Virus record (IMG/VR): IMGVR_UViG_3300029319_000215
Span: 1-34,314 of that record
Length of the DNA stretch: 34,314 bases
Source: a virus
Strand: one strand, 5' to 3'
The notes under the pieces are model-generated. The model was given only the letters and a program-made list of their open reading frames with translations, ran no database searches and had not been told where the DNA came from. A program made the translations under genes and the position numbers. Of this stretch, positions 30,076-34,314 are shown piece after piece; position 1 is the first letter of the stretch, and every line of letters starts with the position of its first letter.

Positions 30076-31119
30076 ATGGCAAGAATTAAAGTTGACGAAA
30101 TTACAAATTTAGCAGAGAATGGAAATGTATCATTCCCTAATGGTGGTGCTAGTTTTTCGGGGAACGTAAGTGTTGGTGGTTCTCTTACTGCTGACAGTGT
30201 TAACGCTAGTATCGCACTAAAAAATTTTACTAATGCTGAATTACCCTCATCTGGTAATACAGTAGGAACTCTTGTTTGGAATTCTGATGTTCAAGAAGTT
30301 CAAGTTTGGGATGGAGAGGCTTGGGTAAAACTCAACAATCCCTACAAAGATGTTGATGCTACATCAGTAGAGGCATTTTGGGATGGTGCTGCTGACCAAG
30401 TTAGCGGTAATGTTTGGTTTTCTAAAAGACAACATCCAAACGTTTCTCATGCCAACTGTACTATGATTAACAATCCTGTTTACAGTCCTTCTGTGCCAGG
30501 TGGAGATGGTTCTATTGGATTCTGGAATTTTAATGGTAGTAACCAGTATGGTTGGATCAATGATCTAAACTATTCTAATGGTGGTAATCATGGTCCTGAT
30601 AATAATGGAAGACTATCAAATTTTACAATGGGCATCTGGTTTAGAACTACATATGGAACTCCTAACACAGGTGGTGGTTGGGACTCTGGAAACTGGTCAT
30701 GGTTAGACTGGGATAGATCAGAAGTTATTTCTTGGAACATAGGTACTGCGGGTAAACTACAGTTTTCTGGTTATGCTAACACAGGTGGTTATTGGGATAT
30801 CACAGGTGATAGGACATATAATGATGGTCAGTGGCATTTTGGAGTTTGCACAGTATCTTCAACTAACAACCAAGTAAAATTTTATGGAGACGGAACTGCA
30901 GACGGAACACGTAGTGTAAACCACTCTTACTTCGGTGCAAGAACTAGACGTTGGGGATTTATTGGTGATGGTTCAGAAGCGGGTGGTAATAATAGTAGTA
31001 GAAACAACGTTTACTATGATGGTGACATTGCACAACTATTTTTAATCAACGAAGTTTGGACTGATGAAAAGATATTAACTCATTACAATAAAACTAAAGG
31101 ACGTTTTGGTCTTTCATAA
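30076..31119 (+). CDS. Short tail fibre/adhesin with LamG-like C-terminal domain (347 aa)
   Basis: Residues 1-90 form a module shared with the next gene: MARIKVDEIT, VSFPNGGASFSGNVSVGGSL, then VGTLVWNSDVQEVQVWDGEA and a Trp. From about residue 150 to the end is a concanavalin/LamG-like lectin domain. It starts at IGFWNFNGSNQYGWI, continues with a FTMGIWFRT strand and WHFGVCTVSSTNNQVKFYGD, and closes with IAQLFLINEVWTDEKILTHY and NKTKGRFG, the usual ending of such domains. Carbohydrate binding on the host surface is the likely role. GAAGAG (30056-30061) may act as ribosome-binding site, 14 bases from the ATG. Confidence 0.7.
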   Translation: MARIKVDEITNLAENGNVSFPNGGASFSGNVSVGGSLTADSVNASIALKNFTNAELPSSGNTVGTLVWNSDVQEVQVWDGEAWVKLNNPYKDVDATSVEAFWDGAADQVSGNVWFSKRQHPNVSHANCTMINNPVYSPSVPGGDGSIGFWNFNGSNQYGWINDLNYSNGGNHGPDNNGRLSNFTMGIWFRTTYGTPNTGGGWDSGNWSWLDWDRSEVISWNIGTAGKLQFSGYANTGGYWDITGDRTYNDGQWHFGVCTVSSTNNQVKFYGDGTADGTRSVNHSYFGARTRRWGFIGDGSEAGGNNSSRNNVYYDGDIAQLFLINEVWTDEKILTHYNKTKGRFGLS

Positions 31120-32201: not shown

Positions 32202-33164
32202 ATGGGAACCGTCAACGCAAATCTATTCTCAGCGAGCACTGGTGTAAAAGTTCCATCTGTAAATGGCACAGGAAATTATCCATCAGGTCTAGGGACTGGT
32301 GATGCAGGATTTATAATTTATGATTCTTCATTAAAGACATTAGTTTTTTGGAATGGAACTCAATGGAATGAGGTTCGTTTCTTAGGTCCTCAGAGTGGAG
32401 CAGATCCAAACTCTGCTATAGTAGATTTTCCTGCATGGATATCTACAGGTCCTGCATCAGGAAACTACTGGGTAAAACCATCTGGATATGGTGGTGCTGC
32501 AGAACAAGTTTATATTGCTGTAAATGACTCTTCTCAATCAGGAATAACATCTGGTGGAGTATGGATTAGAATAAGATATTCGCAAAGTTACTATTCAAGA
32601 GGTGATGCTTGGAGAGGTCAAGGTGGTCTAAGTAACCCAGCTAACCAAAGTTCAACTGCATATAGTGGAAACTTTTCATTTGAACAAAGTGATGCTTGGA
32701 TTGCAGCATTATTGCAACAAGGTAATTTTACAGAAATTAGACAGATATTTGAGTCATGGGGATATGGATCTGTTGGTTGGACGTATGGATCTGGATATAT
32801 GGAATCTAGAGGATTTGATGATGTAAACTATACAAGATGGGGAACGAACTCAAACATTGTTGGTAAAGATTACACTAGAGTCAGTGGTATGTCTCATAGC
32901 ACAAGTTCAATCAATGGTTCATTTAGTAACCCAACTAGTAGAAACACTGACCAAACAGATAGAAACGATAGCACTTGGAGATATGGTAGGTTCTACTTTA
33001 GATATGTTCCGCCAGGTGGTTCTTCAGCATTGCCATTACCTATAAAAGGTATATGGAACGCTGACGTTGATGGTGGATCTGAGCAAAGATACTTCCCATT
33101 CCGTGATTCAGCTGGTGGATGGACTGGTGAAGGTGACAGTAATATTTGGGTCAAGGTTGGTTAA
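32202..33164 (+). CDS. Short tail fibre/adhesin with fibrinogen-like domain (320 aa)
   Basis: Residues 1-60 are the compact attachment module (GVKVPSVNGTG, then AGFIIYDSSLKTLVFWNGTQ and a following Trp). The rest resembles a fibrinogen-related domain: SGNYWVKPSGYGGAAEQVYI (about 85-104), SGGVWIRIRYSQ, and an aromatic-rich middle (WGYGSVGWTYGSGY). The C-terminus (FPFRDSAGGWTGEGDSNIWV) is Gly/Trp-rich, as in phage fibrinogen-like heads. A helical insertion AWIAALLQQGNFTEIRQIFE stands near 165-184. It has its own late promoter and a 105-base upstream gap, unlike the tightly packed genes before it. The Shine-Dalgarno is weak. Receptor binding is inferred. The -35 element of the next promoter overlaps its end. 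Confidence 0.6.
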   Translation: MGTVNANLFSASTGVKVPSVNGTGNYPSGLGTGDAGFIIYDSSLKTLVFWNGTQWNEVRFLGPQSGADPNSAIVDFPAWISTGPASGNYWVKPSGYGGAAEQVYIAVNDSSQSGITSGGVWIRIRYSQSYYSRGDAWRGQGGLSNPANQSSTAYSGNFSFEQSDAWIAALLQQGNFTEIRQIFESWGYGSVGWTYGSGYMESRGFDDVNYTRWGTNSNIVGKDYTRVSGMSHSTSSINGSFSNPTSRNTDQTDRNDSTWRYGRFYFRYVPPGGSSALPLPIKGIWNADVDGGSEQRYFPFRDSAGGWTGEGDSNIWVKVG

Positions 33165-33213: not shown

Positions 33214-33393
33214 ATGGACGCTGAAAAAATGGTCAAAGAGTTTACTGACCAATTGAAAGAACAAAAAGCAACAATCGTAGAACTGGAAAAACAACTAAGC
33301 ACTCGTAAAGAGCAAACGTTGAGACTTGAAGGTGCAATCGAAGCACTTAACATGACACTCAAAGAAGAAGATGCCACTGAAGAAATCAAGTGA
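33214..33393 (+). CDS. Small coiled-coil protein (59 aa)
   Basis: ATG at 33214, TGA at 33391-33393. Almost the whole protein is a charged amphipathic helix (FTDQLKEQKATIVELEKQLS, then RLEGAIEALNMTLKEED) with heptad-spaced Leu/Ile, so a coiled coil is expected. No known family is recognised. The Shine-Dalgarno is poor. Its 3' end overlaps the next gene by 23 bases in another frame. It follows a sigma70-like promoter rather than a late motif, so it may be expressed early or constitutively. A regulatory or assembly role is a guess. Confidence 0.55.
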   Translation: MDAEKMVKEFTDQLKEQKATIVELEKQLSTRKEQTLRLEGAIEALNMTLKEEDATEEIK

Positions 33394-33706
33394 ACTAAGA
33401 CAACAAGAACACGTAAATTCTAGGCAGTTCCATATTAAATTTGATGGAACTGCAGAGACGTGCCCTTACAAAGTGGGAGATCTGTATGATGGTAGAAGTA
33501 TCATATCAATAGGATTCTCCTCAAATTTGTATGGACACTCATATCATTTAATTGTAGAAAGAGATAGAACACACCTAAGAACTAAGTTTGTGTTTGACGA
33601 AAAGCACGATATAAAGTTCTGCAAACCTGTGGAAAGAATGGGTAAGCAAATTTCAGAAGGTGAAGTTCAAAAACTGTTAGCAAAGGCAGGAGACGGAACT
33701 TCATAA
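33371..33706 (+). CDS. Unrecognised protein (111 aa)
   Basis: ATG at 33371 follows a purine-rich AAAGAAGAAG. The start lies inside the coiled-coil gene (23-base overlap). The N-terminus is basic and polar (LKKSSELRQQEHVNSRQ). The middle reads as a small beta-barrel-like fold (FHIKFDG, YKVGDLYDGRSIISIGF, YHLIVERDR, TKFVFDE), followed by a helical C-terminus (ISEGEVQKLLAKAG). Two cysteines (CPYK and FCKP) are not in a metal-binding arrangement I recognise. Its TAA stop is part of the next late promoter. Function unknown. Confidence 0.6.
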   Translation: MPLKKSSELRQQEHVNSRQFHIKFDGTAETCPYKVGDLYDGRSIISIGFSSNLYGHSYHLIVERDRTHLRTKFVFDEKHDIKFCKPVERMGKQISEGEVQKLLAKAGDGTS

Positions 33707-33736: not shown

Positions 33737-34314
33737 ATGAAGAAGGTAATAGTAAGGATCAATGACAACTATAGTATAGATCAAGCATGTGCAGAGATCT
33801 TGAAACTATATGGTTACTTATCCTTTGTCGAACAATTCAGATCATTTCAGATGCTTGCTTTTGATTGCCCTGCAGCGTATCAAAGCAATCTTATAAATCA
33901 ACTACGAGCATTAAACGTAGTTAAAAATGCTACATGGGATAAAGAAGTATATCAACTTGATCCTATGCCAGAAATGACATCCTTTACTATGGAAACACCA
34001 GAGAGTGTGACCCTTAATGATGTTGGAGAAACTACTGCGACAAGCAATACCAGAAGTCTAACAACAACTAGTAGTGGAACGATATATGTAAAAGTTCAGA
34101 ATATAAGTGGTAGTGATTACTTTGTGTTCTCACAAACATCTGGTGGAACGTATTCTCGATATTATAATTACAGTGGTTTCATGCAAGGTGGAACCTATAC
34201 ATTTGATCAAAGTGACTCAAGTAATAGTGGACATCCATTTAGATTTTCAGAGACACAAGATGGAACACATACCACAGGTGGAACAGGAGAATTAACTGCA
34301 GGAGTAAGTGTTAC
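33737..34314 (+). CDS. I9-propeptide-like plus cupredoxin-like protein, 3' end missing
   Basis: ATG at 33737; the frame is open to the window end (192 codons). Residues about 2-75 follow the beta-alpha-beta-beta-alpha-beta order of the subtilisin-propeptide/inhibitor I9 fold: KVIVRI strand, SIDQACAEILKLYG helix, FVEQFRSFQMLAFDC hairpin, AAYQSNLINQLRAL helix, NVVKNATWDKEV strand. After a Thr/Ser-rich linker, residues from about 116 (IYVKVQNISGSDYFVF, GGTYTFDQSDSSNSGHPFRF, DGTH) match a cupredoxin-like domain I know from marine phage and bacterial proteins. Its expected C-x-x-H-x-x-x-M ligand part would lie past the window end. An alternative start is TTG at 33725 with GAAGGA (33715-33720) 4 bases upstream, adding four residues; the ATG has no well-spaced Shine-Dalgarno. 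Downstream could be a protease or adhesin. Function uncertain. Confidence 0.6.
   Translation, partial: MKKVIVRINDNYSIDQACAEILKLYGYLSFVEQFRSFQMLAFDCPAAYQSNLINQLRALNVVKNATWDKEVYQLDPMPEMTSFTMETPESVTLNDVGETTATSNTRSLTTTSSGTIYVKVQNISGSDYFVFSQTSGGTYSRYYNYSGFMQGGTYTFDQSDSSNSGHPFRFSETQDGTHTTGGTGELTAGVSV

Follow-up and report, generated by a model that had tools for sequence, protein, structure and literature searches.

What kind of protein begins at the very end of this viral contig, where a gene runs off the available sequence? The window, that is, the whole stretch of DNA that was analyzed, is the entire IMG/VR contig of 34,314 bases, and its last open reading frame (ORF) (33737 to 34312, plus strand) encodes 192 residues and is open at the contig end. 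An earlier note on this DNA had proposed an inhibitor-I9-like propeptide joined to a cupredoxin-like domain and perhaps followed by a subtilase, and all three parts were recovered in relatives of the protein. The features read at this end of the window are as follows.

33371 to 33706, plus strand: neighbor gene of 111 amino acids, matching phrog_26228 (4.6e-73), with the gene order of phages P-HM1, P-HM2, and MED4-213.
33737 to 33964, plus strand: inhibitor-I9-like propeptide domain, residues 1 to 76, assigned from AlphaFold2, Foldseek, and its place N-terminal to the S8 domain in relatives.
33965 to 34312, plus strand: linker and N-terminal part of cupredoxin 1, residues 77 to 192, from the alignment with 30 relatives; cut by the contig end.
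34232 to 34234, plus strand: codon of His166, the first predicted copper ligand (GHPFRF), with His in 81 of the 81 sequences that have a letter there (83 aligned).

Six phage records, representing three phages listed twice each, had 69 to 78% identity to the ORF product over 91 to 100% of its 192 residues, PHROG phrog_27200 matched it strongly (4.6e-100), and a scan of viral contigs found relatives at 78 viral loci. Together, these matches exclude a chance similarity. The start codon at 33737 is common to the proteins of P-HM2, P-HM1, and MED4-213, which the phage records give as Prochlorococcus phages and whose full-length counterparts have 1827, 1832, and 1840 residues, respectively, in a family with a full-length size of ca. 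1,700 to 1,980 residues. The protein at viral locus L005 is 94% identical to that of the window over the 166 residues that they have in common and reaches the end of the gene; over 498 bases, this comparison gave a dN of 0.029 and a dS of 0.099. Judging from these sequences, the ORF encodes the N-terminal 192 residues of a giant protein from viruses of ocean cyanobacteria, and this giant protein appears to be a self-inhibited protease with built-in copper-binding-type domains. Some other matches of the window protein were discarded: those to antibodies in a PDB sequence search (E of 0.0018 and worse) reflect low-complexity Ser/Thr/Gly similarity, and those to Pfam PKD_6 and STN were under their cutoffs. 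At one locus (L053), a stop or frameshift, either a real break or a sequencing error, divides the gene into open stretches of 1037 and 716 residues.

Read across the relatives, the predicted domain order is I9 propeptide, cupredoxin, S8 subtilase, a second cupredoxin in most members, Ig-like repeats, and a beta-rich C terminus. Of this chain, only the propeptide and the beginning of cupredoxin 1 lie in the window, and the remaining architecture comes from relatives.

For the propeptide, an AlphaFold2 model built from the window's 192 residues and 30 relatives gave a block over residues 1 to 70 with pLDDT values of 84 to 94. The modeled order (strand 2 to 8, helix 14 to 24, strand 29 to 34, strand 39 to 44, helix 52 to 57, and strand 62 to 67) corresponds to a predicted ferredoxin-like beta-alpha-beta-beta-alpha-beta fold. 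The top PDB match of the model in Foldseek was a Tk-subtilisin propeptide complex (2z56_B; E of 0.012; TM of 0.66 by target length), with more subtilisin propeptides at ranks 5, 6, 12, 13, 16 to 18, and 34 (E of 0.012 to 0.1). Both results agree with the earlier proposal that the N-terminal ca. 75 residues are subtilisin propeptide-like, and the ferredoxin-like order at residues 1 to 70 answers its question of whether residues 1 to 80 might fold otherwise. When matches were scored on a DALI-like scale, the propeptides of subtilisin and furin had Z scores of ca. 8 (prosubtilisin, 8.1) and the best ferredoxin-like domain, Mesd, had 9.8; these scores, with the propeptides tied or below, do not set I9 apart from other ferredoxin-like domains. 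No hmmscan match to PF05922 (I9) was found in the window protein or among 43 family members, and an I9 profile search of the PDB returned the Tk-subtilisin propeptide as the second of two matches, at an E value of only 1.6, so the I9 link by sequence alone is weak. It is the context that decides the assignment, because a subtilase follows: the propeptide is N-terminal to the S8 domain in P-HM2, P-HM1, MED4-213, and other relatives.

A proteinase K-like subtilase comes next in all relatives whose sequence was read that far. Since the window stops short of this domain, the catalytic residues were read in relatives, using an alignment of 83 sequences (72 distinct, with S-BM3 and the window included); two of the original 85 stretches, namely, L001 and one of the two parts of L053, were left out. 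PF00082 was found in P-HM1 (5.6e-28; 98.5 bits versus a cutoff of 21.8) and missed in P-HM2 and MED4-213, that is, found in one of the three cultured-phage proteins, and it matched 22 of 43 family members (E of up to 0.1). The P-HM2 protein matched aqualysin-1 (5.4e-14), and the family profile matched aqualysin, proteinase K, and others (best, 5.9e-20), the profile alignment pairing the GHGT, FSNYG, and GTS motifs as well as the WxLDRI sequence at the start. Wherever a letter was present, the catalytic columns were identical: Asp in 80/80, His in 75/75, Asn in 73/73, and Ser in 71/71. The subtilase with an Asp/His/Ser triad that the earlier note had suggested looking for beyond the contig end is thus present in relatives with invariant catalytic residues, and its other option, an I9 domain that stands alone with no protease behind it, is excluded at the family level by the subtilase in all relatives read that far. 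Between the loci L006 and L017, the S8 part had a dN of 0.041 and a dS of 0.374 (dN/dS ratio of ca. 0.11), the ratio being 0.24 for cupredoxin 2 and 0.16 for the remainder; by these substitution rates, the S8 part is under purifying selection.

Within the window, residues 90 to 180 matched phrog_693 (tail fiber; 1.1e-11), and GHPFRF...DGTH lies at residues 165 to 178. The contig ends before the Cys-His-Met strand of cupredoxin 1, leaving only the His166 ligand inside the window, and the full domain was read in P-HM2, P-HM1, MED4-213, and L005. Relatives display the type 1 copper ligand pattern His...Cys-x2-His-x2-Met. In cupredoxin 1, between propeptide and enzyme, the ligands are His in 81/81, Cys in 80/80, His in 80/80, and Met in 79/80, the lone axial exception being a Leu in L005, the nearest relative of the window. 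For cupredoxin 2, behind the enzyme, all four ligands are present in 55/55; this domain is absent in 15 of the 70 proteins running past its place, and it is found at another place in L079 and L080. A third cupredoxin, recognized by motif inside an Ig domain, was seen in 13 of 48 proteins of >1,600 residues and exists in two forms, ending in Gln (seven proteins) or Met (six proteins). PF00127 (Copper-bind) matched 31 of 43 members (best, 1.8e-4), the match of the first member being at cupredoxin 2, and a profile of either module type also matches the other type over the same stretches. Foldseek listed rusticyanin, nitrite reductase, plastocyanin, and amicyanin for a 782-amino-acid model, in a table that does not state which of the two domains was matched. 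The reading of the second domain as cupredoxin-like was therefore borne out by the complete ligand set of the relatives and by these Foldseek matches; the copper ligands anticipated in the earlier note are present in relatives, but with the spacing C-x2-H-x2-M rather than the predicted C-x-x-H-x-x-x-M. By sequence comparison, the cupredoxins of this family are movable inserts with a well-kept ligand set.

How the propeptide may sit relative to the enzyme was assessed with that model, which comprises residues 1 to 782 of L006 and has low pLDDT in its S8 part (block means mostly 23 to 81). The I9 and S8 parts aligned jointly with unprocessed pro-subtilisin E (Z of 17.9; root mean square deviation [rmsd] of 4.0; 281 residues) over model residues 1 to 608, across the cupredoxin insert. 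PCSK9 with its prodomain was the best match (Z of 18.2), within 1 of pro-subtilisin E, and listed chains aligned only from ca. residue 241 on had Z values of 13.2 to 14.1. The propeptide is therefore predicted, from a model with low confidence in S8, to sit on the enzyme as in known zymogens despite an insert of ca. 155 residues. No cupredoxin was among the best 50 structural matches listed for the 782-amino-acid model (VIA-align), though Foldseek listed some; a single domain of a long model can take up an entire structural match list.

The neighborhood of the gene is conserved. The giant-protein gene comes after the 111-residue gene in P-HM1, P-HM2, and MED4-213, and the window has the same order. 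It is directly upstream of gp13 (neck protein) in P-HM1 and P-HM2, where its annotation says only "hypothetical protein, contains PF07686 domain," and the gene at the corresponding downstream place in MED4-213 is annotated as hypothetical. The place before gp13 is occupied in the T4-like cyanophage P-RSM4 by a YadA-domain structural protein. Further upstream in the window, a protein of 347 amino acids (30076 to 31119) has a Laminin_G_3 lectin-type domain at residues 176 to 333 (1.7e-6, just over the cutoff), and an ORF of 320 amino acids (32202 to 33164) had no Pfam or PHROG match at E values of up to 1; P-HM1 and P-HM2 have differing genes in this latter region.

Cupredoxins were also found in other phage subtilases, in several arrangements. 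The S-BM3 homologue, recorded as "peptidase S8" (T4-GC_519), is without cupredoxin 1, its propeptide joining the enzyme by a short linker only, and has one cupredoxin inside S8 before SAGN and another behind the enzyme. In S-H9-1 and ACG-2014e, proteins of 668 and 686 residues, respectively, consist of a propeptide, a subtilase, and a C-terminal cupredoxin. The "proximal tail fiber" of S-CAM1 (KU686192.1, L096:1296-3551) is a subtilase, too, and here a cupredoxin separates the regions of the catalytic Asp and His. The subtilases of S-CAM1, L197, and L219 contain one or two cupredoxins with the Cys-His-Met strand before the His part; from this strand order, the S-CAM1-type domains are apparently circularly permuted. 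To survey the combination, viral contigs were fetched with four subtilase queries, and distinct ORFs ending inside their locus were counted. A cupredoxin was present in 61 of 89 distinct subtilase ORFs (45 behind and 16 before the catalytic Ser) and in 12 of 131 other distinct ORFs of at least 300 amino acids at the same loci, a ratio that is inflated, since three of the four queries came from cupredoxin-bearing subtilases (two from a cupredoxin search and the third, S-BM3, known to have one) and the loci are related. The P value of 1.2e-20 is not a usable probability because queries and relatives are nonindependent. CxxHxxM or CxxHxxL was kept in 60 of the 61 module-bearing subtilase ORFs. 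Among the matches of the cupredoxin-free query S-H38, only one of five further subtilases (S-TIM54) had the module; the gene of S-SCSM1, another of these five, was read except for its last 28 residues.

The module occurs as well in baseplate and fiber-type proteins without a protease. The gp9/gp10-like baseplate wedge proteins of P-RSM4 (gp9, L087:2026-3258) and Syn9 (L102:1023-2243) have a C-terminal cupredoxin that retains both HPF and CxxHxxM, and a cupredoxin-2 query matched 209 phage records, mostly of Synechococcus phages. The 2140-amino-acid virion structural protein of S-TIM54 (L252:2030-8452) contains a subtilase and has a cupredoxin near its end, and S-TIM5 has a protein of 485 amino acids (L090:2050-3507) with a cupredoxin at the corresponding place after the portal gene. 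CxxHxxM was lost in two of eight further proteins from the cupredoxin search (P-RSM6 and the S-WAM1 structural protein). A cellular source of the fusion was not found in genome contigs, which gave 12 of 73 candidate stretches as relatives. Of these 12, 11 are remote subtilases without CxxHxx[MLQ] in the longest forward-strand ORF. The twelfth, contig L236 (PBPE01000110.1; 7 kb), from a marine metagenome-assembled genome (MAG) titled Dehalococcoidia, carries the same phage gene at 69% identity and is most likely a misbinned phage contig.

With moderate confidence, and on the grounds of sequence and models, we favor the reading in which the giant protein is a self-inhibited virion protease, matured by autoprocessing, that would act on host surface or lysis-debris proteins, with the cupredoxins as stabilizing elements. 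Because no signal peptide was seen by eye in the giant protein, the chain would be made in the cyanobacterial cytoplasm, where the I9 domain would fold the protease and block its active site, keeping it harmless during assembly. In the virion, the protein would be located near the neck or tail, since gene order puts it there, and this placement gains support from the other cyanophage subtilases recorded as virion proteins, namely, those of S-SCSM1 ("baseplate wedge subunit (virion protein)") and S-TIM54 (virion structural protein), and from the cupredoxin modules of the gp9/gp10-like baseplate proteins of P-RSM4 and Syn9. Self-cleavage would then release the protease from the I9 domain, and the enzyme, displayed on the particle, would cleave host surface proteins at adsorption or, after lysis, proteins of the debris. 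The cupredoxins would be compact beta modules, most likely binding copper once outside the cell, that stabilize or position enzyme and fiber and are optional, moving between sites; such a general structural role is argued by the wide use of the module in proteins without a protease. We infer the virion location, the proteolytic activity, and the copper binding of the giant protein.

A more specific role for copper, which we regard as improbable, is suggested by the insertion of cupredoxin 1 at the propeptide-enzyme junction, where S-BM3 has a short linker, and by its nearly invariant ligands: copper uptake by this domain, outside the reducing cytoplasm, would shift it and free the protease. 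The several other ways in which cupredoxins are built into phage subtilases (S-BM3, S-CAM1, S-H9-1, and ACG-2014e) and the survey counts (61/89 subtilase ORFs versus 12/131 other ORFs) would fit such gating. However, the survey ratio is biased upward by query choice and related loci, only one of the five subtilases from the S-H38 query has the module, baseplate and fiber proteins have it without a protease, and the axial Met is a Leu in the 94% identical relative of the window. There is a similarly slight chance that marine cyanophages carry copper-responsive virion proteases, in which a blue-copper-type domain, placed at the propeptide-enzyme junction or, in sister families, within or after the enzyme, responds to extracellular copper or redox state by turning on the subtilase. 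If this were true, the subtilase would stay inactive while particles assemble and become active once they are free, and free cyanophage particles would hold protein-bound copper in seawater.

Two other roles for the S8 domain deserve consideration. The prodomain of PCSK9 stays bound permanently, and PCSK9 with its prodomain being the best match of the model (tied within 1 with pro-subtilisin E), together with a chain rich in Ig-like domains typical of binding, would suit an inactive scaffold in which S8 is used as a binding domain; we consider this quite unlikely, given that the catalytic Asp, His, Asn, and Ser do not vary in any sequence, which would be unexpected for a dead enzyme. Unlikely as well is an assembly protease without an outside role, cutting its own chain or neighboring fiber or baseplate proteins in virion maturation. 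The gene does lie among tail fiber and baseplate genes and adjoins gp13, but T4-like cyanophages have a prohead protease, and P-RSM4, with the same morphogenesis genes, has a YadA-type protein in that place instead. One such prohead protease is listed in the S-CREM2 virion (PMC10665884).

Part of this protein had been noted before. Sullivan et al. (2010; PMC3037559) mention, in the passages considered, an S8 peptidase (T4-GC518) that among their cyanophages was only in P-HM1 and P-HM2. GenBank notes of these phages assign GC 519 to the giant-protein gene and GC 518 to its 111-residue neighbor, and the 2010 peptidase appears to be the same gene as that of the giant protein; the propeptide and cupredoxins are not mentioned in those passages of PMC3037559. 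The earlier note knew of no described precedent, which does not hold for the S8 peptidase, already named in PMC3037559 and in the S-BM3 record, but does, within the literature covered, for the propeptide and cupredoxins. A literature search with most subscription journals outside its scope found no account of the propeptide, the copper-type domains, their mobility, or the wider set of phage subtilases, nor any paper on cyanophage with plastocyanin-like or on cupredoxin with bacteriophage tail fiber. A term search of PMC5082946 gave no mention of PHM2_106, and "subtilisin" is used for the tail sheath only in the relevant passages of PMC12796325 and PMC9004378. As far as these sources go, the S8 peptidase in P-HM1 and P-HM2 was known, and what is new is the propeptide together with the recurrent insertion of cupredoxins into phage subtilases.

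Under the favored reading of a self-inhibited virion protease, virus particles may carry the giant protein as an enzyme. The enzymes of phage tails are generally regarded as sugar degrading, and if phages of abundant ocean cyanobacteria had a self-inhibited subtilase, it would suggest how a phage handles host protein barriers. The copper-type domains on phage subtilases and the baseplate raise testable questions, such as whether particles bind copper and whether copper controls the particle enzyme.

Compared with known systems, the giant protein shares with the S8A proteinase K/aqualysin group and its I9 domain the N-terminal propeptide, the WxLDRI N terminus, and the Asp/His/Asn/Ser motifs, whereas the phage family has a cupredoxin of ca. 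155 residues between propeptide and enzyme, no signal peptide by eye, and a long Ig-rich chain in which the enzyme is embedded. The subtilases of S-H9-1, ACG-2014e, S-H38, and S-CREM1 have an I9-like N terminus by eye and an S8 core, as the giant protein does, and some of these stand-alone cyanophage subtilases have a C-terminal cupredoxin; unlike the giant protein, they are 550 to 690 amino acids long and without Ig repeats, and those of S-H38 and S-CREM1 are without the cupredoxin motif. By genome position alone, the giant protein corresponds to fibritin (wac) of T4, the gene of which is directly upstream of gp13, and it is much larger than fibritin. Amicyanin, plastocyanin, and rusticyanin match the model in fold and have a similar ligand pattern, amicyanin having the His...Cys-x2-His-x2-Met spacing. 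In contrast to these proteins, the predicted copper domains of the phages are embedded in structural proteins, and some phage copies have Leu or Gln in place of Met.
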